Shown in pieces: positions 2,933 to 30,349 of a stretch of 36,850 nt of DNA. Position numbers and translations under genes: made by a program. The stretch spans positions 1-36,850 of the forward strand of contig JAAELY010000421.1 in NCBI GenBank assembly GCA_024226335.1, given 5' to 3'. Below the pieces are notes generated by a model that was not told the origin of the DNA, did not search any database, and worked only from the letters and a program-made list of their open reading frames with translations. Source of the stretch: a bacterium. Its GTDB lineage: Bacteria; Myxococcota_A; UBA9160; SZUA-336. Position 1 is the stretch's first letter. Each line of letters starts with the position of its first letter.

Positions 2933-3361
2933 ATGCAAATTCCCCTGATGTTCAACCCGACCCATCCGGCCAGTCAATCTAGCTTCGAGTTCTACGCGCC
3001 CGGCCGTCCAGAAATCCTGCTCGCCGAGGACGACGACGACATCGCGCAGGCGCTAGGCATCGTGCTCGGCCGGACGTTCAATGTGACGACCGAGAACTGT
3101 GGACGCGACGCGTTGCGAACCTATGAAATCGCACCACCGGATCTCCTGCTACTCGACTACCAGTTGCCCGATATGAACGGTTTGCGTTTGTTCGAGTCGA
3201 TCCGACGGCGCACGGGTGCATGTCCCCCGATCGTGATGATCTCGGCGTTCCCGAGCCGGCGCGAGGACCTGCTTTCCGCGGGGGTCGATTGTTTCCTGGA
3301 AAAGCCCTTCGAGACCCGGGACCTGGTATGGGCGATCGAGCAGGCCTTGCACCGCCACTAA
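2933..3361 (+). CDS. Stand-alone receiver-domain protein
   Basis: 142 residues. After a roughly 24-residue N-terminal extension, a full receiver domain follows: acidic pocket LLAEDDDDIAQA (E32, D33, D34), phospho-acceptor D75 in LLLLDYQLPDMNG, switch Ser in VMISAF (S104) and Lys in FLEKPF (K124). No DNA-binding or enzymatic output domain is present, so it should act by protein-protein contact. GGAGG six bases before the ATG supports the start. It is monocistronic, with no kinase next to it and a hydrolase pseudogene converging on its 3' end. Its cognate kinase is unknown. Confidence 0.9.
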   Translation: MQIPLMFNPTHPASQSSFEFYAPGRPEILLAEDDDDIAQALGIVLGRTFNVTTENCGRDALRTYEIAPPDLLLLDYQLPDMNGLRLFESIRRRTGACPPIVMISAFPSRREDLLSAGVDCFLEKPFETRDLVWAIEQALHRH

Positions 3362-3406
3362 CCAGGAGGCCGGTGAAGACGCCGGAGAACCCGGAGCGGT
3401 TCAGCT

Positions 3407-3958
3407 TCAACGCCCGAGTTCGAGCGCTAGATCTGACAGCTTGATCGCGCGGAGGAGGAACCAGCTGCGCGATGTTCGTCTGCTCGGCACGGGGAATACC
3501 CAGAACCCGCAGTAGACCCAGCGGCTGCGTGATGTGCCGCTCGACGAAGTCGCAATAGTCGAGACCGCCGAACCGTACAACACGGCGCTCGGAAATCCGC
3601 AGGTCATCAGCAAAACCTGTTCGACGCTGACCGCCTGCTTGCCGTTGGCTCCAAACTCGGGGATGTAGTCGACGACCGGACGACTGACATCGAGCAGACC
3701 GTCGCCGATCAAGAGCCAGATTGCAGATGCCACGATTGGCTTGGTGGCCGATGCGATGCTGAAGCGGGTCTTCGCATCTGCGGTTCCGAAGGATTCCGTC
3801 CAGATGATCTCGGAGTTCAGCGCCACGGCAACCTGGCAGGCCCTCAAGCCGGCGGAGATTTCCTGCGCGACCGCGTCGCGCAATCTCGCCGTATCGAAGC
3901 CGTCGGTCACGATCGACTCGAACCCGCCATGAATCCCCTCCGGGGAGCGCCGTATCAC
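3407..3958 (-). pseudogene. Beta-lactamase-family serine hydrolase remnant
   Basis: The N-terminal half is intact and class-C/esterase-like: VAVALNSEIIWTESFG, then FSIASATKPIVASAIW containing the S-x-x-K catalytic motif (SATK), GLLDVSRPVVDYIPEFG, and VEQVLLMTCGFPSA (the usual LLTHTSG region). Immediately after, around 3572-3590, homology moves to another frame (GGLDYCDFVERHITQPLGL, then VLGIPRAEQTNIAQLV). The segment that normally carries the YxN-type motif is missing, and the C-terminal third is also gone. This is therefore an internal deletion with a frameshift plus a 3' truncation, not one polymorphic error. The start is a GTG. It faces and almost touches the receiver gene, next to another decayed gene, and is most likely non-functional. 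Confidence 0.82.
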
Positions 3959-3990
3959 AACGAAACTCGTTGTCCGGGTATGATGGGTGG

Positions 3991-4842
3991 ATGGGAAAAC
4001 TCGACGGAAAGATCGCAGTCGTCACCGGCGCAAGCCGGGGCATTGGTCAGGAAATTGCCACGCTATTCGCCGCGGAGGGTGCCCGAGTCGCCTGCCTGGC
4101 TCGGACGGTCGACGAGGGAGATCACAAACTCTTCGAAGGCTCAGTCAATCGGACCGTCGAGCAGATTCGTACGGCGGGAGGCGAAGCATTCCCGGTCGCC
4201 TGCGATGTTTCAACCTACGAGAACTGTGAGGCGGCCATCCGAGATGTGCGCCAGGCCCTCGGACCGATCGACGTCCTGGTGAACAACGCCGCCCTGACCT
4301 ACTTCCTTCCAATTGCCCAGTTCTCGATCAGCAAGTGGCAGCGCTCGCTGGCGGTGAACTTCAATGGACCCTTCTATCTGTCCCAACTCGTGCTCGAGGA
4401 CATGATTCCGCGCAAGACGGGAGCGATCGTAAACATCTCGAGCGGCGCGGCGATTGGACCCGGCCGGGCTCCGTACGACGAGAAGACACGGGCCATCCGC
4501 GGCGGCACACTTTACGGCGCAGAGAAGGCGGCTCTCGAGCGCTTCACGCAAGGACTGGCTGCCGAGGTCTACGACGACGGCATCTCCGTCACCTGCGTGA
4601 GCCCTTCGATGATCGTCGCAACGCCTGGCGTCGAGCACCACCAGCTGCTGCGCGGTCGCGAGAACATGGCCGAGCCAAGCGAGTTCATGGCGCGATCCGC
4701 TCTGCTGCTCGCCACTGAACCGCTTTCCAAGGTGAGTGGGCGCGTCACCTACAGTCAGGAAATCCTGCTCGAGTTCGGCTGGATCGAGGCCGGCCACGGG
4801 ATCGGCATCGAAGGAAAGGGCTCGGGCTTCTCCGAGATCTGA
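3991..4842 (+). CDS. SDR-family oxidoreductase
   Basis: 283 residues, a classical short-chain dehydrogenase. The Rossmann motif TGASRGIG is at residues 12-19, NNAA at 98-101, catalytic Ser in NISSGAA (about 151-152), and Y175-x-x-x-K179 in LYGAEKAAL. Arg at position 16 and no acidic residue at the end of beta2 (ARVACLART) suggest NADP(H) preference; that is inference. A 30-residue insert before the catalytic Tyr (GPGRAPYDEKTRAIRG) is shared with SDRs annotated around acyl-CoA or steroid metabolism. The ATG at 3991 fits the fold start; an in-frame TTG at 3970 would add seven residues. Substrate unknown. It is followed after 211 bp by a desaturase on the same strand. Confidence 0.88.
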   Translation: MGKLDGKIAVVTGASRGIGQEIATLFAAEGARVACLARTVDEGDHKLFEGSVNRTVEQIRTAGGEAFPVACDVSTYENCEAAIRDVRQALGPIDVLVNNAALTYFLPIAQFSISKWQRSLAVNFNGPFYLSQLVLEDMIPRKTGAIVNISSGAAIGPGRAPYDEKTRAIRGGTLYGAEKAALERFTQGLAAEVYDDGISVTCVSPSMIVATPGVEHHQLLRGRENMAEPSEFMARSALLLATEPLSKVSGRVTYSQEILLEFGWIEAGHGIGIEGKGSGFSEI

Positions 4843-5053: not shown

Positions 5054-5935
5054 ATGTTGAAGGCGCTACTGACTCGCTACGAGCGCGCTCCCGATGAACG
5101 GGTCAACTGGCTCGCAAGCATTCCCTTCATTCTCATACATGTCCTTCCGCTCGCCGCGATCTGGACAGGCGTCACGCGCTTCGACCTGCTGCTCTGTGCC
5201 GGATTGTTTGCGGCCAAGATGTTCTTCATCACTGCGGGGTATCACCGCTATTTCTCGCACCGGGCCTTCAAGACGACTCGCCTCGTGCAGTTCCTGCTGG
5301 CCTTCGGCGGCGGGATGGCGGCGCAGAAAGGCGCCCTCTGGTGGGGAGCGCACCACCGGCACCATCACCGCTTCTCGGATCAACCCGACGACATCCACTC
5401 GCCGATGAAGGGCTTCTGGTGGAGTCACATCGGCTGGATCACCTGTGATCGCTACGGCAACACCAACTACGACGACATCAAGGATCTGGCGCGCTACCCA
5501 GAACTGCGTTTCTTGAACCAATACCACTGGATTCCACCGATCGCGCTCGGACTCTTCTGCTTTCTGGTCGGCGGCTGGAGCGGACTGTGGATCGGGTTCT
5601 TCCTATCGACGGTACTGACCTATCACACGACGTTCCTGATCAATTCCGCTACGCATCTCTTTGGCCGGCGTCGCTACGCGCTGAACGACACGAGCCGAAA
5701 CTCCCTCCTGATGGCCCTGGTCACTTTCGGTGAGGGCTGGCATAACAACCACCATCACTACCAGGCTTCAGCAAATATGGGCTTCTTCTGGTGGGAGATC
5801 GACATCTCCTACTACGCACTCCGATTCTTGAGCCTGTTCGGGGTGGTCTGGGACCTGCGCACTCCGCCGGAAACGGCGCTGGAGGCAAACCGGGTCACAG
5901 AAGGCAATCCCGACGTCGGGATGCTCCTGCACTAG
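5054..5935 (+). CDS. Fatty acyl-CoA delta-9-type desaturase
   Basis: 293 residues with the full set of membrane desaturase histidine boxes: HRYFSH (64-69), HHRHHH (100-105) and HNNHHH (230-235), between hydrophobic stretches at roughly 20-60, 75-95 and 160-195. This is the stearoyl-CoA desaturase type, a di-iron inner-membrane enzyme that uses O2 and an electron donor to put a cis double bond into a saturated acyl chain. AGGAG lies nine bases before the ATG. No electron-donor gene is fused or adjacent. It converges with the Rieske oxygenase gene over a 22-bp gap. Length is normal for bacterial members (about 290-330). Confidence 0.93.
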   Translation: MLKALLTRYERAPDERVNWLASIPFILIHVLPLAAIWTGVTRFDLLLCAGLFAAKMFFITAGYHRYFSHRAFKTTRLVQFLLAFGGGMAAQKGALWWGAHHRHHHRFSDQPDDIHSPMKGFWWSHIGWITCDRYGNTNYDDIKDLARYPELRFLNQYHWIPPIALGLFCFLVGGWSGLWIGFFLSTVLTYHTTFLINSATHLFGRRRYALNDTSRNSLLMALVTFGEGWHNNHHHYQASANMGFFWWEIDISYYALRFLSLFGVVWDLRTPPETALEANRVTEGNPDVGMLLH

Positions 5936-5957: not shown

Positions 5958-6914
5958 TTAGCGGGGCGAGTAGAACTGCTGGGTCCAGCGCCGGAATGCG
6001 GCCAGCGCCGCGTCGGCGTCGCTGAATACGGGCCGGTTGCGAAAGATCATATTCGACCAGATCTGCATATCGTCCAGCACGCCCTTCGTAAAACCATCCA
6101 TCAGATCTTCGCCGCCGATATCGACGAAGTTCCGGGTCGTGGACAGGACCCAACGCGTGATCGTGTTGTTCTCGTCGACCGGCGAGGTCGATGAGAACAT
6201 GTACATGCCAATTCCGGGAATGCCGTCCACATACACGGCTGAGGTTCCCAGTCCCCAGGTATCCCGCACGAGTTTCGTCTTGACGATCGAACCGTCGCGC
6301 CCGGTGTGTTCGACGTCGCTCGTGGCGCGAAAGAAGTGCCCATCCTCGCTGTAGTCGACCTCCGTCGGAGGCGGACTGGCCATTCCGTGGACGAACTGAA
6401 AATGCACCGGGTCGCAGTTGTTCTCGGCCAGGGCCTGCATGTGCACGGGGACTTCAAGGTCGAAGTACCTGGGCTCGCACCATTCGGGATCCTCGAACTG
6501 CGAGATCGTCGGCACCTGCCACGAGGGTTGCTTGTCCTCGGCATGATGCCAGACGAAGATCATGAGGTTCTTCTCATCCACCTGCCAAGGACGCTGGCAG
6601 GCCTTTGTGGGAATGTTTTTCGCGTAGGGAATGACGGTGGCCGCGCCAGTTTCGCCGTCGAACTGCCAGGCGTGGAAGGGACAGCGGACATTGTCTCCTA
6701 CGACTCTTCCCCCCTCACCGAGATGAGCCCCCAGATGGGCGCAATAAGCGTCAAGCACGCGAGCTTTTCCGGAGCGCGTGCGGAAGAGCACGAGTTCCTC
6801 GTCGAAGTAGCGCACCCGCTTCACTTCGCCGATGGCTAGATCACGACTCCAGGCGACTGCAAACCAGCCGTTTGGAATTCCAGGGGTCTGATGACCTTCA
6901 CGTTGTCGACTCAT
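5958..6914 (-). CDS. Rieske non-heme iron oxygenase, large subunit (KshA/DAF-36-like)
   Basis: 318 residues. The N-terminal Rieske domain has C58-x-H60 and C78-x2-H81 (AYCAHLGAHLG ... VRCPFHAW), binding a [2Fe-2S] cluster. The catalytic domain has the mononuclear iron site D168-x2-H171-x4-H176 in NNCDPVHFQFVHG. The opening GWFAVAWSRDLAIGEVKRV and the overall length resemble 3-ketosteroid 9-alpha-hydroxylase and cholesterol 7-desaturase-type oxygenases, so a sterol or other bulky hydrophobic substrate is plausible but not shown. GGAGG five bases upstream fixes the ATG. It is last in a three-gene minus-strand run with the ferritin-like and COQ4-like genes. No dedicated reductase is adjacent. 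Confidence 0.92.
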   Translation of the reverse strand: MSRQREGHQTPGIPNGWFAVAWSRDLAIGEVKRVRYFDEELVLFRTRSGKARVLDAYCAHLGAHLGEGGRVVGDNVRCPFHAWQFDGETGAATVIPYAKNIPTKACQRPWQVDEKNLMIFVWHHAEDKQPSWQVPTISQFEDPEWCEPRYFDLEVPVHMQALAENNCDPVHFQFVHGMASPPPTEVDYSEDGHFFRATSDVEHTGRDGSIVKTKLVRDTWGLGTSAVYVDGIPGIGMYMFSSTSPVDENNTITRWVLSTTRNFVDIGGEDLMDGFTKGVLDDMQIWSNMIFRNRPVFSDADAALAAFRRWTQQFYSPR

Positions 6915-6965
6915 GAGTTCCTCCGTGGGAGACGCGAGTGATCGAGCCCCATTCTCTCGGGTTCT

Positions 6966-7985
6966 TCAGGCTTCCAGTGTTTTGAAACGCTCGAGAATGC
7001 GGACGCCATTGGGATGCTCCAGAATTCGCCCGTGGATGGCCTTGCGTTGATCGTCGATCTGGAGCTTCGGTGCCTCGACCAGCACGAAATGGGTAATGGT
7101 CCGAAACAGGCGATCGATGATCTCGGCACCCTTCACGGTACCGCCGCCGACGCTCTTGAAGGTGATCGAACGCAGTTCTCCCAGGTTCGCTCGTAACGAA
7201 GTGACATGAATGACCTCGTCCTGGCGAATGCGCTCGATGATCTGCGCGGCTTCCTCCGCCTGAGCGCGCCGGTCTGAAAACAGCTCGGTAGTCCGCAAGA
7301 TGCGCTGATTGAAGCTGAACAGACTCTCCGCACCGTACTCGATCATGAGCAGATTCATCATGAACAGGATGAGCCGCTCACATTCCTCGGGAATCTCCGG
7401 GGCCAGACGCTTTTCCGCGTCGGGCCGTCCGAGAAACTCCGGAGCCGTCGCCATCGGGAAGTCCTTGGGACCGAAGGCGAGATCGCGCACGACGAACCAC
7501 ATGACATCGTGAGCGCCGATGCTATTGCCGGGCTCTCCGCCCTCATCCACTCCATGGGACTTGAGCATGCCCTTGTTCAGATGCCCGATTCCCATCTCAG
7601 AAATATCCTCGACGATGATCTCCTGCAGATCCGGGAAACTCATTTCGGCAAGGACGCGACCGCGCGCCTCGAGCAACCCGGTAATCGTGAGGGAGTCCCA
7701 GAACACCCGCTCGACACCCTCTCGCAACAAGAGCTTCATCTGCTCTTCGCTCGGGTAGCGCTCTCGTTCAACGATGGCCGGATCAACGGGGATGATTTCG
7801 TTTCCGCGCTCGCGAAGCGCCGCGGTCCATGCGTCGACGGCGCCCAGGCGCACGCGTGTGCGGGGCGAGAGGTAATTCCCCTGCGCGTCGAATCCCCCGT
7901 GTACGCGCTCGCCACCCACAACGTGCTCCCGCGCGTAATCGTGGTGACTCATGATTTCGCTCTCGCTGTAGACGAGTTGCTTCAT
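6966..7985 (-). CDS. Putative ferritin-like di-iron protein of unknown function
   Basis: 339 residues with no family I can name. The C-terminal half is helical and carries spaced carboxylates and a histidine in a ferritin-like pattern: PEECERLILFMMNLLMIEYG (E200, E201, E203, E216, E220) and, about 40 residues later, RIRQDEVIHVTSL with an E257-x-x-H260 pair. An earlier helix, EDISEMGIGHLNKG, offers E126, E130 and H135. The N-terminal 60 residues (MSHHDYAREHVVGGERVHGG) are polar and His-rich. A di-iron oxygenase or oxidase role would suit its neighbours, a Rieske oxygenase 51 bp downstream and a COQ4-like protein 28 bp upstream, but the fold assignment is inference. AGAGAGG five bases before the ATG supports the start. 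Confidence 0.6.
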   Translation of the reverse strand: MKQLVYSESEIMSHHDYAREHVVGGERVHGGFDAQGNYLSPRTRVRLGAVDAWTAALRERGNEIIPVDPAIVERERYPSEEQMKLLLREGVERVFWDSLTITGLLEARGRVLAEMSFPDLQEIIVEDISEMGIGHLNKGMLKSHGVDEGGEPGNSIGAHDVMWFVVRDLAFGPKDFPMATAPEFLGRPDAEKRLAPEIPEECERLILFMMNLLMIEYGAESLFSFNQRILRTTELFSDRRAQAEEAAQIIERIRQDEVIHVTSLRANLGELRSITFKSVGGGTVKGAEIIDRLFRTITHFVLVEAPKLQIDDQRKAIHGRILEHPNGVRILERFKTLEA

Positions 7986-8013
7986 ATCGACCTCTCTTGT
8001 CTAGAGCCCTTGG

Positions 8014-8727
8014 TCAGGCGGAAAGTGCGGGTGCCCCGGCAGAGCGCAACTGTTCGTAGACTGGCGGCGGACCCACCTCGAGTTCCTCGCGAACCACGTC
8101 GATCGGTCGCTCGAATAGCGCCGCCCAGTCCTGCTCGGCCAGCGGCTTGGCGCGCTTTCCGCGGCGATACCCCTGGCGGGCCAGCTTGCCGAGTTCCGAA
8201 TTCCAACCCGCGCGTCGCACCGCCTGGAAGACCAGGTAGGCGATACCGCGGTTGTAGGTCTGTGCGATCCCGAACGCGAGCACGCCGACCTCGCCGTGCA
8301 GATCGCGATCGTACCCGGCAAGCACGTGGTAGACGTCGTGCAGGTTTCGCAGGCGCGAGCCGTAAACATGTTCCTCGTCGCTGGTCGTCACTCCGCGATC
8401 CCCCAGGACTTCGGCAGCTTCGGCACTCGCCTGGGCCAGCCCTTCGGTGCTGATACCCTCGCGAATGAACCACTCGATGAGGGTCCGCCCGAGCGAACCT
8501 TCTGGCATGGCCAGCAACCGCTCCTTGTCCGTGAGAACGTCGTAAAGATCGCACTTGTCGCGCAGGATCTGCGCTCCGCGCGCCGAACTCTTGAAGCGCT
8601 TGAAGTGCCGCTTGCTGGAGTTCCCGGACAGTGCGCCGATGACCTGGATTGCCAGTGCGGTGTCATCGGGATTCTGGCGGGCCTTCTTCATCGCGCGCAT
8701 CGCAACCAACGGACGCATTCGGGCCAT
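8014..8727 (-). CDS. COQ4-like protein
   Basis: 237 residues. It contains the COQ4 zinc-site signature HDxxH-x11-E exactly: H130-D131-V-Y-H134 with E146 (LRNLHDVYHVLAGYDRDLHG, then E). The flanking helices (RRAGWNSELGKLARQGYRRG) fit the all-helical COQ4 fold. COQ4 is required for ubiquinone synthesis and, by recent family work, is linked to C1 decarboxylation/hydroxylation of the quinone precursor. Here no other ubiquinone genes are nearby; the gene heads a run with a ferritin-like protein and a Rieske oxygenase. I chose ATG 8727 because GGAGG lies seven bases upstream; ATG 8733 leaves almost no spacing. It may act on a different isoprenoid, aromatic or sterol-like substrate. Confidence 0.85.
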   Translation of the reverse strand: MARMRPLVAMRAMKKARQNPDDTALAIQVIGALSGNSSKRHFKRFKSSARGAQILRDKCDLYDVLTDKERLLAMPEGSLGRTLIEWFIREGISTEGLAQASAEAAEVLGDRGVTTSDEEHVYGSRLRNLHDVYHVLAGYDRDLHGEVGVLAFGIAQTYNRGIAYLVFQAVRRAGWNSELGKLARQGYRRGKRAKPLAEQDWAALFERPIDVVREELEVGPPPVYEQLRSAGAPALSA

Positions 8728-9898: not shown

Positions 9899-11587
9899 AT
9901 GGAATTCACAACCGGCGGCGAAGCCGCCGCCCACGCTCTTATGGCGCACGGCGTCGACACGATCTTCACCCTGAGTGGTGGGCATCTAAACCCGATCTAC
10001 CTGCACCTCGAAAAAACGGACGTGCGCTTCTTCGACACGCGGCACGAGCAGGCCGCAGTCTGGATGGCCGAGGCCTACGGGCGCCTCACGCGACGCCCGG
10101 GTGTCGCCCTGGTGACCGCGGGCCCAGGCTTCACGAATGCCCTGACTCCGATTGCCAGCGCGGCCATGGCCGCGACGCCGATGGTGCTGATTTCCGGCTG
10201 CGTCGGTGTGCGCATGATCGAGAAACTCGATCTGCAGGACATGCGTCAGGCGCCGGTCATCGAACCGATGGTCAAGAAAGCTCTCATCTGCCACCACGCC
10301 GATCGAATTCCCGAGTTCGTCGACCTCGCCTTCCGCGAGGCGACCAGCGGGCGTCCGGGACCGGTGTACCTCGAACTGCCCGTCGACGTCTTGACCGCGG
10401 AACCGGGCCGAGATGTATCGATTCCGATTACGCGCGTCGACTCGCAGGTCGTCGATCGCGCCAAGGCGAAGGAGTTGATGGATCTGATCAGCCAGGCGGA
10501 AAAGCCGGTCATCGTGGCGGGTAGTGGCGCCTGGTACTCGGACGCGGGTGAAGAACTGAAACGTTTCATCACGGCCACCGGGCTTCCGATCTTCACCTCT
10601 GCCAACGGACGGGGTGTCGTTCCCGATACAGATCCCCTGTGCTTCGGCGGCATCCTGGCCATCCGGCCGGGTTCGGGTATGTACGCTGGCGGGAATACCG
10701 ATCTGGTGATCCTGCTCGGCAGCCGGATCAATCTGTTCTGTCTGTTCGGTGACACCTACAACCCCAACGCGAAGATGGTCCAGGTCGACATCAAGGCCGA
10801 GGAGATCGGGCGCAACCGGCCGATCGATCTGCCGATCGTCAGCGATATTCGCGCGCTGGTCAGCGAACTGAATGAAATCGTCGAGGCCTCGGGCAAGTCC
10901 GATAGTCTGCAGAAGCGGTTTGCCCCGTGGATTCAGGAACTCGGACGCGCCCACGAAGAAGGCATGGCGAGGGGTGAAGTCGATTGGCGCAGCGACAGCA
11001 AGCCGATCCACCCGATGCGATTGGTCAAGGACATCGACGAGTTCATGAACCGCGAAGACGACATCGTCGTAACAGATGGTGGCGACGCCACCACCTGGAT
11101 CGGCATGACCCGCACCATGCGACAGGCAGGTCACTACCTGGACTACGGGCTGTTCGGCTGCCTTGGCGGCGGCCTTCCCTACGCCAATACCGCCAAACTG
11201 CTCTACCCCGACAAGCGGGTTCTACTGTTCACCGGCGACGGTTCCCTGGGATTCAACTTCATGGAGTTCGAACGAGCCATCACCAAGGGCTTGCCGGTCG
11301 TGGTCATCATCTCCAATGACCTGGGCTGGGGAATGATCCGGCACAGCCAGGTCGTGAAACTCGGGCGGGCAATCGAGCCCGTAACCGAACTAGGCCGCAT
11401 CGACTATCACCGCTTCGTCGAAACCATGGGCGGGGTCGGTTTCCTGGTCGAAGAACCCGATCAGATCCGCCCCGCACTCGAGGAGGCCTTTGCATCGGGC
11501 AAGACGGCCTGCATCAACGTGATGACGGATCCGGCGACCATCAGCCCGGGCAGCATCGCACTGGCCAACGTGGGCGCGTATCAATAG
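9899..11587 (+). CDS. ThDP-dependent acetolactate synthase/2-hydroxyacyl-CoA lyase-type enzyme
   Basis: 562 residues with the three-domain layout of the ThDP decarboxylase/synthase superfamily. The N-terminal PYR domain has catalytic Glu50 in RHEQAAVWMAEAYG, then VTAGPGFTNALTPIASA. The central domain includes EKPVIVAGSGAWYSD. The C-terminal PP domain binds ThDP-Mg through GDGSLGFN (from about residue 446) with the partner Asn in IISNDLGWG. The glycine-rich stretch GLFGCLGGGLPYA precedes the PP motif. Sequence style is closest to oxalyl-CoA decarboxylase/2-hydroxyacyl-CoA lyase and non-anabolic acetolactate-synthase-like proteins; no regulatory small subunit is nearby, so branched-chain amino-acid synthesis is unlikely. 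GGAAAGGG lies seven bases before the ATG. Confidence 0.88.
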   Translation: MEFTTGGEAAAHALMAHGVDTIFTLSGGHLNPIYLHLEKTDVRFFDTRHEQAAVWMAEAYGRLTRRPGVALVTAGPGFTNALTPIASAAMAATPMVLISGCVGVRMIEKLDLQDMRQAPVIEPMVKKALICHHADRIPEFVDLAFREATSGRPGPVYLELPVDVLTAEPGRDVSIPITRVDSQVVDRAKAKELMDLISQAEKPVIVAGSGAWYSDAGEELKRFITATGLPIFTSANGRGVVPDTDPLCFGGILAIRPGSGMYAGGNTDLVILLGSRINLFCLFGDTYNPNAKMVQVDIKAEEIGRNRPIDLPIVSDIRALVSELNEIVEASGKSDSLQKRFAPWIQELGRAHEEGMARGEVDWRSDSKPIHPMRLVKDIDEFMNREDDIVVTDGGDATTWIGMTRTMRQAGHYLDYGLFGCLGGGLPYANTAKLLYPDKRVLLFTGDGSLGFNFMEFERAITKGLPVVVIISNDLGWGMIRHSQVVKLGRAIEPVTELGRIDYHRFVETMGGVGFLVEEPDQIRPALEEAFASGKTACINVMTDPATISPGSIALANVGAYQ

Positions 11588-19695: not shown

Positions 19696-20448
19696 CTAGT
19701 CCCCGAGCGGCATCCAGTCGTTGACCGGCGCCTGCATTGTCGAGAGATCCCTGGTTCCCGACTGCGCGCAGTGGTACACCATCGCCTCGCGAGCCGAATC
19801 ACACACGTTGTCCAGTGAGCAGTGCATGAGATGGCTGTGAAACACCAGGGTATCACCGGGCTTGATCAGGACCGGCGCTGCATCCGACATATCGTGGTCG
19901 ACGATTTCGAAGTAGCCGAAATTGGCACCTTCGCGGCGATCCGGCACGTGCTCGTGCAAGGGTTCCCGGTGCGAACCCGGTACGACACTCAGGCAACCGT
20001 TGGTCAGGGTCGCCTCCGTGATCGCCAGCCAGATGCCAATCTGAGGCTTGCGATCGAACGGAAAGTAGTGTGAGTCCTGATGCCAGGGCTGGCCCCATGC
20101 ACCGGGATTCTTGAAGATGAACTGCGAGAGAAAGCAGTCGACCTTCGGGCCGATCAAGTCCGCGAGGAGATCGACGAGTACGGGATCGTTGATGAACTCG
20201 TGAAATGCGCCACGGCGATGCAGTTTGAAAACCTTGGAAATTCCGTCTTCGGCGTTTTCTGAAATGCGATCAACGAGATTATTCTCCCCCGTCAAAATCG
20301 CACCTTCCCAGACACCCGGTTTACCGGCGGCCCGACACAGAGAGACGACTTCGTCGTGCATGCGTTGGCGCCGCTCCGAAGACGCAAAGCCCTCGAGCAA
20401 GATGAAACCATCGCGATCGAAGGCTTCTCTCTGATCATTGCCAAGCAT
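19696..20448 (-). CDS. Phytanoyl-CoA dioxygenase (PhyH)-family protein
   Basis: 250 residues. It has the double-stranded beta-helix iron site of Fe(II)/2-oxoglutarate oxygenases: H123-x-D125 in QPWHQDSHYFPFDRKPQIGI, the distal His (H209) in LVFHSHLMHCSLDN, and R220 for 2-oxoglutarate in CDSAREAMVYH. KPGDTLVFHSHL is the classical PhyH strand. By family it hydroxylates a 2-alkyl-branched acyl-CoA or a small secondary-metabolite-type substrate, consuming O2 and 2-oxoglutarate; the actual substrate is unknown. GAGG eight bases before the ATG. It stands alone, with about 145 bp to the LemA gene and 314 bp to the protease gene. Confidence 0.9.
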   Translation of the reverse strand: MLGNDQREAFDRDGFILLEGFASSERRQRMHDEVVSLCRAAGKPGVWEGAILTGENNLVDRISENAEDGISKVFKLHRRGAFHEFINDPVLVDLLADLIGPKVDCFLSQFIFKNPGAWGQPWHQDSHYFPFDRKPQIGIWLAITEATLTNGCLSVVPGSHREPLHEHVPDRREGANFGYFEIVDHDMSDAAPVLIKPGDTLVFHSHLMHCSLDNVCDSAREAMVYHCAQSGTRDLSTMQAPVNDWMPLGD

Positions 20449-29248: not shown

Positions 29249-30349
29249 CTAACCGAGTTCAGCACCTCGGTCATTTTTCGCGGACCAGTCTTCCATAGCC
29301 TGGGCTTCCTGCGTCTTGAAGCGCCGCAAGCGGCTCATGAGGTCGTCGAAGTCGACCTCATGGCCATCGAACTCGGGACCTTCGACGCAGGCGAACTTCA
29401 TCTCGCCGGCCACGTTCACACGGCAGCCGCCGCACATTCCCGTGCCGTCGACCATGATGGGGTTCAGGCTGACCGTGGTCTCGATCCGCCGAGCGCGCGT
29501 CGCCTCGGCGCAGGCCTTCATCATGATCGGCGGACCGATGGCGATTACCCGGTCGACATCGGAATGTTTGCTCAGCGAGTTCTCGATTCCGACCGTGACC
29601 AGGCCCTTGATGCCCGCCGAGCCATCATCGGTACAGACGATGAGTTCGTCGCAGTACTTCGCGAATTTCTCTTCCCAGAACATCAGCTCCCGATTTCGGA
29701 AACCGACGATGCCGATCACGTAGGCGCCGCTCTGCTTGAAGGCTCGCAACTGAGGAAAGATGGGGGCAATGCCGAGACCGCCGCCCACACACACGACCTT
29801 GGACGTGCCCTTGATCTCGCTGGGATGGCCCATCGGCCCCACCAGACTGTGGAGCCTCGCCCCTACTCTGCAGCGCTGCTGGATCTCTCGAGTGGTCTTG
29901 CCCACCGCCTGGACCACGAGGGTGATGGTTCCCGCCTCGCGATCGAAGTCCGCGATGGTCAACGGAACGCGTTCGCCCTTCTCCGTGGAGATGACGATGA
30001 CAAATTGTCCCGGCTCGGCCGCCCGGGCGAGTGCGGGGTGGAGAACTTCGAGCAGGTAGGTGACGTCGGAGAAATCCTCGCGTCCCACGATCTCGAAACC
30101 CGACGACCCCGCCGACATGCTGGGCGGCGTCGCGACCCGACAGCCCCCCTTCCGTTCCTCCCGCGCTTCGGCAATCGCTTCGCGGAATTCGGCGACTACA
30201 GCGTCGCGAGCAGCGAGGGCCGCGTCCAGATCCTGTGTATCCAGCGATCGGCGCAGATCGAAGCCCAGCGCGCCGCGCAGCGTTCGTGGCACCGCGACCT
30301 TGACCCACCAAGTCTGATCTCGCCTGAAGAGGTATCTGGTATCGCTCAT
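29249..30349 (-). CDS. NfnA-like ferredoxin-NAD(P)+ reductase subunit, with recombinase-like N-terminal extension
   Basis: 366 residues from ATG 30349, or about 289 from ATG 30118. The core (residue 78 on) is NfnA: FSDVTYLLEVLHPALARAAE, PGQFVIVISTEKGERVPLTI (FAD), VCVGGGLGIAPIFPQLRAFK (NAD(P)) and, at the end, MVDGTGMCGGCRVNVAGEMK, FACVEGPEFDGHEVDFDDLM. That C-terminal site (one Asp and three Cys) is the unusual [2Fe-2S] site of NfnA. The first 69 residues do not belong to this family; they look like the N-terminal domain of a phage-type integrase. No Shine-Dalgarno is evident before either ATG, so the start is unsettled. First gene of the operon; partner gene 12 bp downstream. Confidence 0.85.
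   Translation of the reverse strand: MSDTRYLFRRDQTWWVKVAVPRTLRGALGFDLRRSLDTQDLDAALAARDAVVAEFREAIAEAREERKGGCRVATPPSMSAGSSGFEIVGREDFSDVTYLLEVLHPALARAAEPGQFVIVISTEKGERVPLTIADFDREAGTITLVVQAVGKTTREIQQRCRVGARLHSLVGPMGHPSEIKGTSKVVCVGGGLGIAPIFPQLRAFKQSGAYVIGIVGFRNRELMFWEEKFAKYCDELIVCTDDGSAGIKGLVTVGIENSLSKHSDVDRVIAIGPPIMMKACAEATRARRIETTVSLNPIMVDGTGMCGGCRVNVAGEMKFACVEGPEFDGHEVDFDDLMSRLRRFKTQEAQAMEDWSAKNDRGAELG
30143..30349 (-). mobile_element. Tyrosine-recombinase N-terminal remnant, in frame with NfnA-like gene
   Basis: Residues 1-69 of the long frame (RYLFRRDQTWWVKVAVPRTL, DLRRSLDTQDLDAALAARDA) have the L-x-R-R ... W-V-x-V-x-V-P ... L-R-R-S-L-x-T-x-D pattern of the small N-terminal (DUF6538-type) domain of phage integrases. 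The core-binding and catalytic domains, with the R-H-R-Y residues, are absent. The segment joins the NfnA core in frame after a short KGGCRVATPPS-type joint. Family assignment is from pattern memory, not a search. Confidence 0.65.

Follow-up and report, generated by a model that had tools for sequence, protein, structure and literature searches.

What does a COQ4-family protein do when its gene lies beside genes for oxygenases? The question is raised by three genes at positions 5958–8727 of the 36,850-nucleotide stretch of DNA analysed here (the window; contig JAAELY010000421.1, from a bacterium of the Myxococcota_A lineage SZUA-336), for which an earlier note, made from the sequence alone, had proposed a separate oxidative pathway acting on a lipophilic ring or isoprenoid. 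In humans COQ4 is a disease gene, and its chemistry has been assigned only in recent years. Where a lineage carries as many as ten COQ4 copies and one of its members shows no ubiquinone pathway, the family would be doing other work, and small COQ4 operons offer a way to its substrate and partner.

The genes of the run

All three genes lie on the minus strand. The COQ4-family gene (8014–8727; 237 aa, with an ATG at 8727 behind GGAGG) is followed after 28 bases by the gene for a 339-aa protein ('DII', 6966–7985), possibly a ferritin-like metal protein, and this after 51 bases by the gene for a KshA-type Rieske oxygenase (5958–6914; 318 aa), so that the tight run described earlier is confirmed. 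The run is flanked upstream by a divergent SDR gene and downstream by a convergent gene for a fatty-acid desaturase (5054–5935).

The first protein scores 64.9 bits against Pfam PF05019 (cut-off 22.9) and belongs by sequence profile to the same family as the solved structures 6E12 (Alr8543) and 3MSQ (E about 1e-27). The COQ4 metal motif HDxxH-x11-E, claimed as exact in the earlier note, can be read directly as HDVYH-x11-E at 8290–8340 of the minus strand, and H130, D131, H134 and E146 are invariant in an alignment of all seven paralogues of the genome. The motif is also present in 70 of the 73 COQ4 genes of the neighbourhood set, and it is therefore a marker of the family and not a sign of quinone chemistry. 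Eukaryotic COQ4 shares both PF05019 and this zinc motif with the window protein, and its chemistry is still described in two ways: the purified ancestral animal protein carries out C1 decarboxylation with zinc held by HDxxH-x11-E (PMC7615680), whereas a review credits a human-cell study with assigning a one-step oxidative decarboxylation to COQ4 (PMC11495197).

The Rieske protein matches PF00355 and, over its full length, KshA_C (PF19298; 92.7 bits against a cut-off of 23.3), and it is the only KshA_C match in the genome. Its nearest solved structure is KshA (4QDC, E 1.8e-34), and both iron motifs, CxH-x17-CxxH of the Rieske center (6672–6743, minus strand) and D-x2-H-x4-H of the mononuclear iron (6387–6413, minus strand), can be read directly, all of which upholds its description as a KshA-like oxygenase. 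It shares domains and catalytic motifs with KshA, the oxygenase of 3-ketosteroid 9alpha-hydroxylase, but is shorter and only distantly related, and has other partners.

The middle protein had been called ferritin-like and a candidate di-iron protein, a description that is upheld only in part, for searches of Pfam, NCBIfam and PDB returned no sequence match. The AF2 model is mostly helical (pLDDT 93). In a Foldseek search of the PDB it had no significant match: all E values were above 0.6, the best probabilities were those of 8fhc (0.38) and MiaE (0.33), and the most probable of these weak matches were ferritin-like enzymes, MiaE and aldehyde deformylating oxygenase. A candidate metal-ligand motif, D256-E257-x2-H260 (7206–7220, minus strand), is invariant in 19 sequences, as are E106, H135, H144, E148, H159 and E216, and these six residues together with E257 and H260 sit on helices of the model. 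Set against the ligand pattern E, ExxH, E, ExxH, the protein has one ExxH (E257–H260) and the invariant E106 and E216, with H135 but no conserved glutamate at the first ExxH position. Together the motifs and weak fold matches make it plausible that the 339-aa protein is a metal enzyme.

AurF-like ferritin-fold oxygenases (PF11583) occupy the slot downstream of COQ4 at two sister paralogues in the same genome, but the 339-aa family has no detectable homology to them. An AurF-like identity was considered and set aside when a profile comparison gave no significant match, although one aligned stretch of that comparison pairs E and ExxH positions with the 339-aa protein. Homologues were found in 51 of 192 genomes searched, and a search for plasmid homologues found none. 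Relatives of a beta-lactamase-fold serine hydrolase of the window (3078–4043, apparently split over two minus-strand frames) adjoin the 339-aa gene at two other loci (L033 and L035).

Quinone synthesis and the COQ4 paralogues

The earlier note had remarked on the lack of ubiquinone genes around the run, and this holds genome-wide as far as tested. The assembly is 97% complete, so that single gene absences are not proof, but the overall pattern is consistent. No COQ7 was found in it, and no ubiquinone hydroxylase (Ubi-OHase) match rose above the cut-off, the matches lying far below. The four UbiA-family genes of the genome comprise two heme O synthases, one member of a men cluster and one MenA-like gene, which leaves none for ubiquinone. 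On contig C240 the men cluster comprises menG, menF, menD, menH, an OSBS-like gene, menE and the UbiA-family gene already mentioned; menB was not located in the 97% complete assembly. A futalosine route to menaquinone was rejected, its marker being absent from the genome and the classical cluster being found instead.

Given the men cluster and the lack of a recognisable ubiquinone pathway, it is very unlikely that the window COQ4 is a ubiquinone gene; with no COQ7, Ubi-OHase or free UbiA to work with, it is therefore not a spare copy of one either. The genome encodes seven COQ4 paralogues, none of them in a ubi context, which runs counter to the picture of a canonical coq4 with a dedicated extra copy and likewise to the opposite case, in which this would be the only coq4 and needed for ubiquinone. 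A single COQ4 serving ubiquinone is ruled out by the seven paralogues, the men cluster and the lack of a COQ7, of a Ubi-OHase above cut-off and of a UbiA not otherwise assigned, taken together. For the organism as a whole, the gene content makes a strong but not absolute case that the ubiquinone pathway is absent. The expansion is class-wide, with COQ4 present in 70 of 98 genomes searched and in up to 10 copies. Eukaryotic COQ4 differs in this respect, being a ubiquinone C1 decarboxylase, whereas the window protein belongs to an organism without a recognisable ubiquinone pathway and has seven paralogues and oxygenase rather than ubi neighbours.

It might still be supposed that COQ4 acts on menaquinone, or on some other ring quinone, in a late oxidation of the head group or in turnover. 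The known COQ4 chemistry is at C1 of the quinone ring (PMC7615680, PMC11495197), and menaquinone synthesis is encoded by the genome. Against this, the contig that carries the men cluster has none of the seven COQ4 genes, and seven divergent copies are a poor fit to a single quinone step, so that a quinone-related role is quite improbable. Other menaquinone bacteria are not known to need COQ4, and this too counts against such a role. Caution is due in annotation: one public plasmid record names its Coq4 gene 'ubiquinone biosynthesis', and genes of the present kind should not be named 'ubiquinone biosynthesis protein COQ4'.

Neighbours of COQ4 and of its partners

The earlier expectation that the trio would be conserved failed. 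No other locus examined unites the 339-aa, Rieske and COQ4 genes, and a conserved trio was rejected, the arrangement having been seen in one genome among all loci examined. The 339-aa family was followed through 80 named loci in Myxococcota, Gammaproteobacteria, Acidimicrobiia and other groups: COQ4 was absent within up to 8 kb of the family gene at every one of them, and a Rieske gene was nearby at one. Most of the 192 genomes searched have Rieske homologues, which are kept apart from COQ4 at the loci examined. A constant COQ4 partner across the class was also looked for and none was found, the neighbours of most COQ4 genes being mixed and uninformative; on a Nostoc plasmid, too, a COQ4-family gene has unrelated neighbours. 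A literature search for published work on Coq4-family operons found none.

More interesting than the trio is an amplified COQ4 family without a recognisable ubiquinone pathway, one clade of which lies beside oxygen-using enzymes. A tree built from 92 COQ4 proteins places the window gene in a clade of six (support 100/99), three from its own genome (the window gene and paralogues on contigs C139 and C545) and one each from the relatives G034, G062 and G005. The C139 gene has an AurF-like gene directly downstream, and that on C545 precedes genes for an FAD oxidoreductase, an AurF-like protein and a nitronate monooxygenase. In G034 a luciferase-like gene lies 65 bases upstream of COQ4 and a PhyH gene 37 bases downstream, and in G062 the neighbour is a divergent PhyH gene; the G005 gene, on a short contig, lacks an oxygen-using neighbour. 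With selected families and a distance of 2.5 kb, an oxygen-using or ferritin-like gene accompanies COQ4 in 5/6 members of the clade, the window gene with its own two partners included, and 9/86 elsewhere (p 2e-4, an optimistic value in that most of the chosen families came from among the genes next to this clade). An unselected Pfam scan agrees, oxygenase-type proteins making up about 1 in 39 of the immediate same-strand neighbours outside the clade.

Two of these loci have features of their own. The run on C545 (L011:147–4636) resembles COQ4, COQ6 and COQ7 in kind, though the genome is without ubiquinone genes. In G034 a single stretch (L237:884–7063) carries the luciferase-like monooxygenase, COQ4, PhyH, a glyoxalase and a second PhyH-like gene.

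In G005 and G007 the 339-aa orthologue has as its neighbour a member of the same luciferase-like family that adjoins COQ4 in G034, and at 19 of 82 loci luciferase-like genes stand no more than 6 kb from the 339-aa gene. Through this shared neighbour COQ4 and the 339-aa protein, which are joined directly in the window, are thus joined indirectly elsewhere. From these gene neighbourhoods, the oxygen-using partner of COQ4 appears to be exchangeable between loci, and the trio would therefore be one among several local combinations.

The same data bear on whether the three genes belong together. COQ4, the 339-aa family and KshA-type Rieske proteins are abundant in the class, and rearrangement could have juxtaposed them with no shared pathway. 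The absence of the trio from all other loci examined is as such a chance neighbourhood would have it, as are the mixed neighbours of COQ4 across the class and the usual place of the Rieske orthologue, in most relatives examined, in a separate operon of TetR, Rieske and amidohydrolase (Amidohydro_2) genes. The short distances between these same-strand genes (28 and 51 bases), the oxygen-using neighbours in 5/6 clade members and the indirect link through the luciferase-like gene all argue the other way, and on balance mere juxtaposition seems unlikely, though it keeps appreciable weight. At four loci from four genomes (L086, L087, L088 and L097) the Rieske and amidohydrolase genes adjoin a cytochrome oxidase cluster, and at three of these a DUF455-like gene and a 339-aa paralogue follow some 14 kb further on.

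A COQ4 relative, about 40% identical, occurs in a catabolic operon, similar in both cases, on two sphingomonad plasmids, Sphingobium yanoikuyae pF2 and Sphingopyxis fribergensis pSfKp5.2 (L192 and L193). There Coq4 is likewise co-directional with oxidative and acyl-CoA genes, namely those for a nitronate monooxygenase, a thiolase, a ChsH2-type OB-fold protein, two acyl-CoA dehydrogenases and an acyl-CoA synthetase; unlike the window run, this operon has neither a Rieske gene nor a 339-aa gene. Such a set of genes suggests the breakdown of an acid that is bulky or isoprenoid.

The plasmid operon also brings a steroid into consideration. The Rieske protein of the window would then be a KshA-like ring hydroxylase in the degradation of a steroid or sterol-like compound, with COQ4 handling a side-chain or ring acid as in the sphingomonads. 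The KshA_C match, the rank of KshA structures as nearest to the Rieske protein, and the ChsH2-type protein with its two acyl-CoA dehydrogenases on the plasmids would all suit such a pathway. KshA is a distant relative, however, with PDB alignments that mainly cover the N-terminal two thirds of the protein, and KshA-type Rieske proteins act on many substrates; a specifically steroid pathway is accordingly improbable.

A putative oxidative step on a lipophilic acid

There is reason to think, with a probability of about 0.45, that the three genes form a small operon, peculiar to the lineage, which oxidises a lipophilic acid of isoprenoid, steroid-like or aromatic type in one step and does not serve ubiquinone. 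COQ4 would hold the lipophilic acid and either remove its carboxyl group, as the purified animal protein does with zinc (PMC7615680), or expose and present it. The oxygen chemistry would come from the 339-aa protein and the Rieske oxygenase, which would hydroxylate the COQ4 product. The part of COQ4 in this step may be that of a metal-dependent decarboxylase or of a lipid-binding partner, and the step itself would be a peripheral one.

Of the separate oxidative pathway first proposed for the locus, what survives is that the gene does not belong to ubiquinone and that its clade lies beside oxygen-using enzymes; the dedicated copy and the conserved trio do not. What is left hints, from gene content and neighbourhood, at an uncharacterised role in lipid oxidation for this COQ4. 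A more general proposal is that COQ4 is a portable metal-dependent module, decarboxylating or hydroxylating lipophilic acids, that has multiplied in ubiquinone-less bacteria with exchangeable partners (Rieske, AurF-like, luciferase-like, PhyH and FAD proteins), among which the 339-aa family would be a new type of metal oxygenase. So broad a role is doubtful at present.

Elsewhere in the window are a PhyH-family dioxygenase gene (19696–20448) and one for a TPP enzyme similar to 2-hydroxyacyl-CoA lyases (9899–11587), a pair that represents both enzyme types of the alpha-oxidation of branched acids. An open frame at 29249–30349 begins with DUF6538 and has a DHODB iron-sulfur match towards its end, which is either an unusual combination or a mis-called frame.
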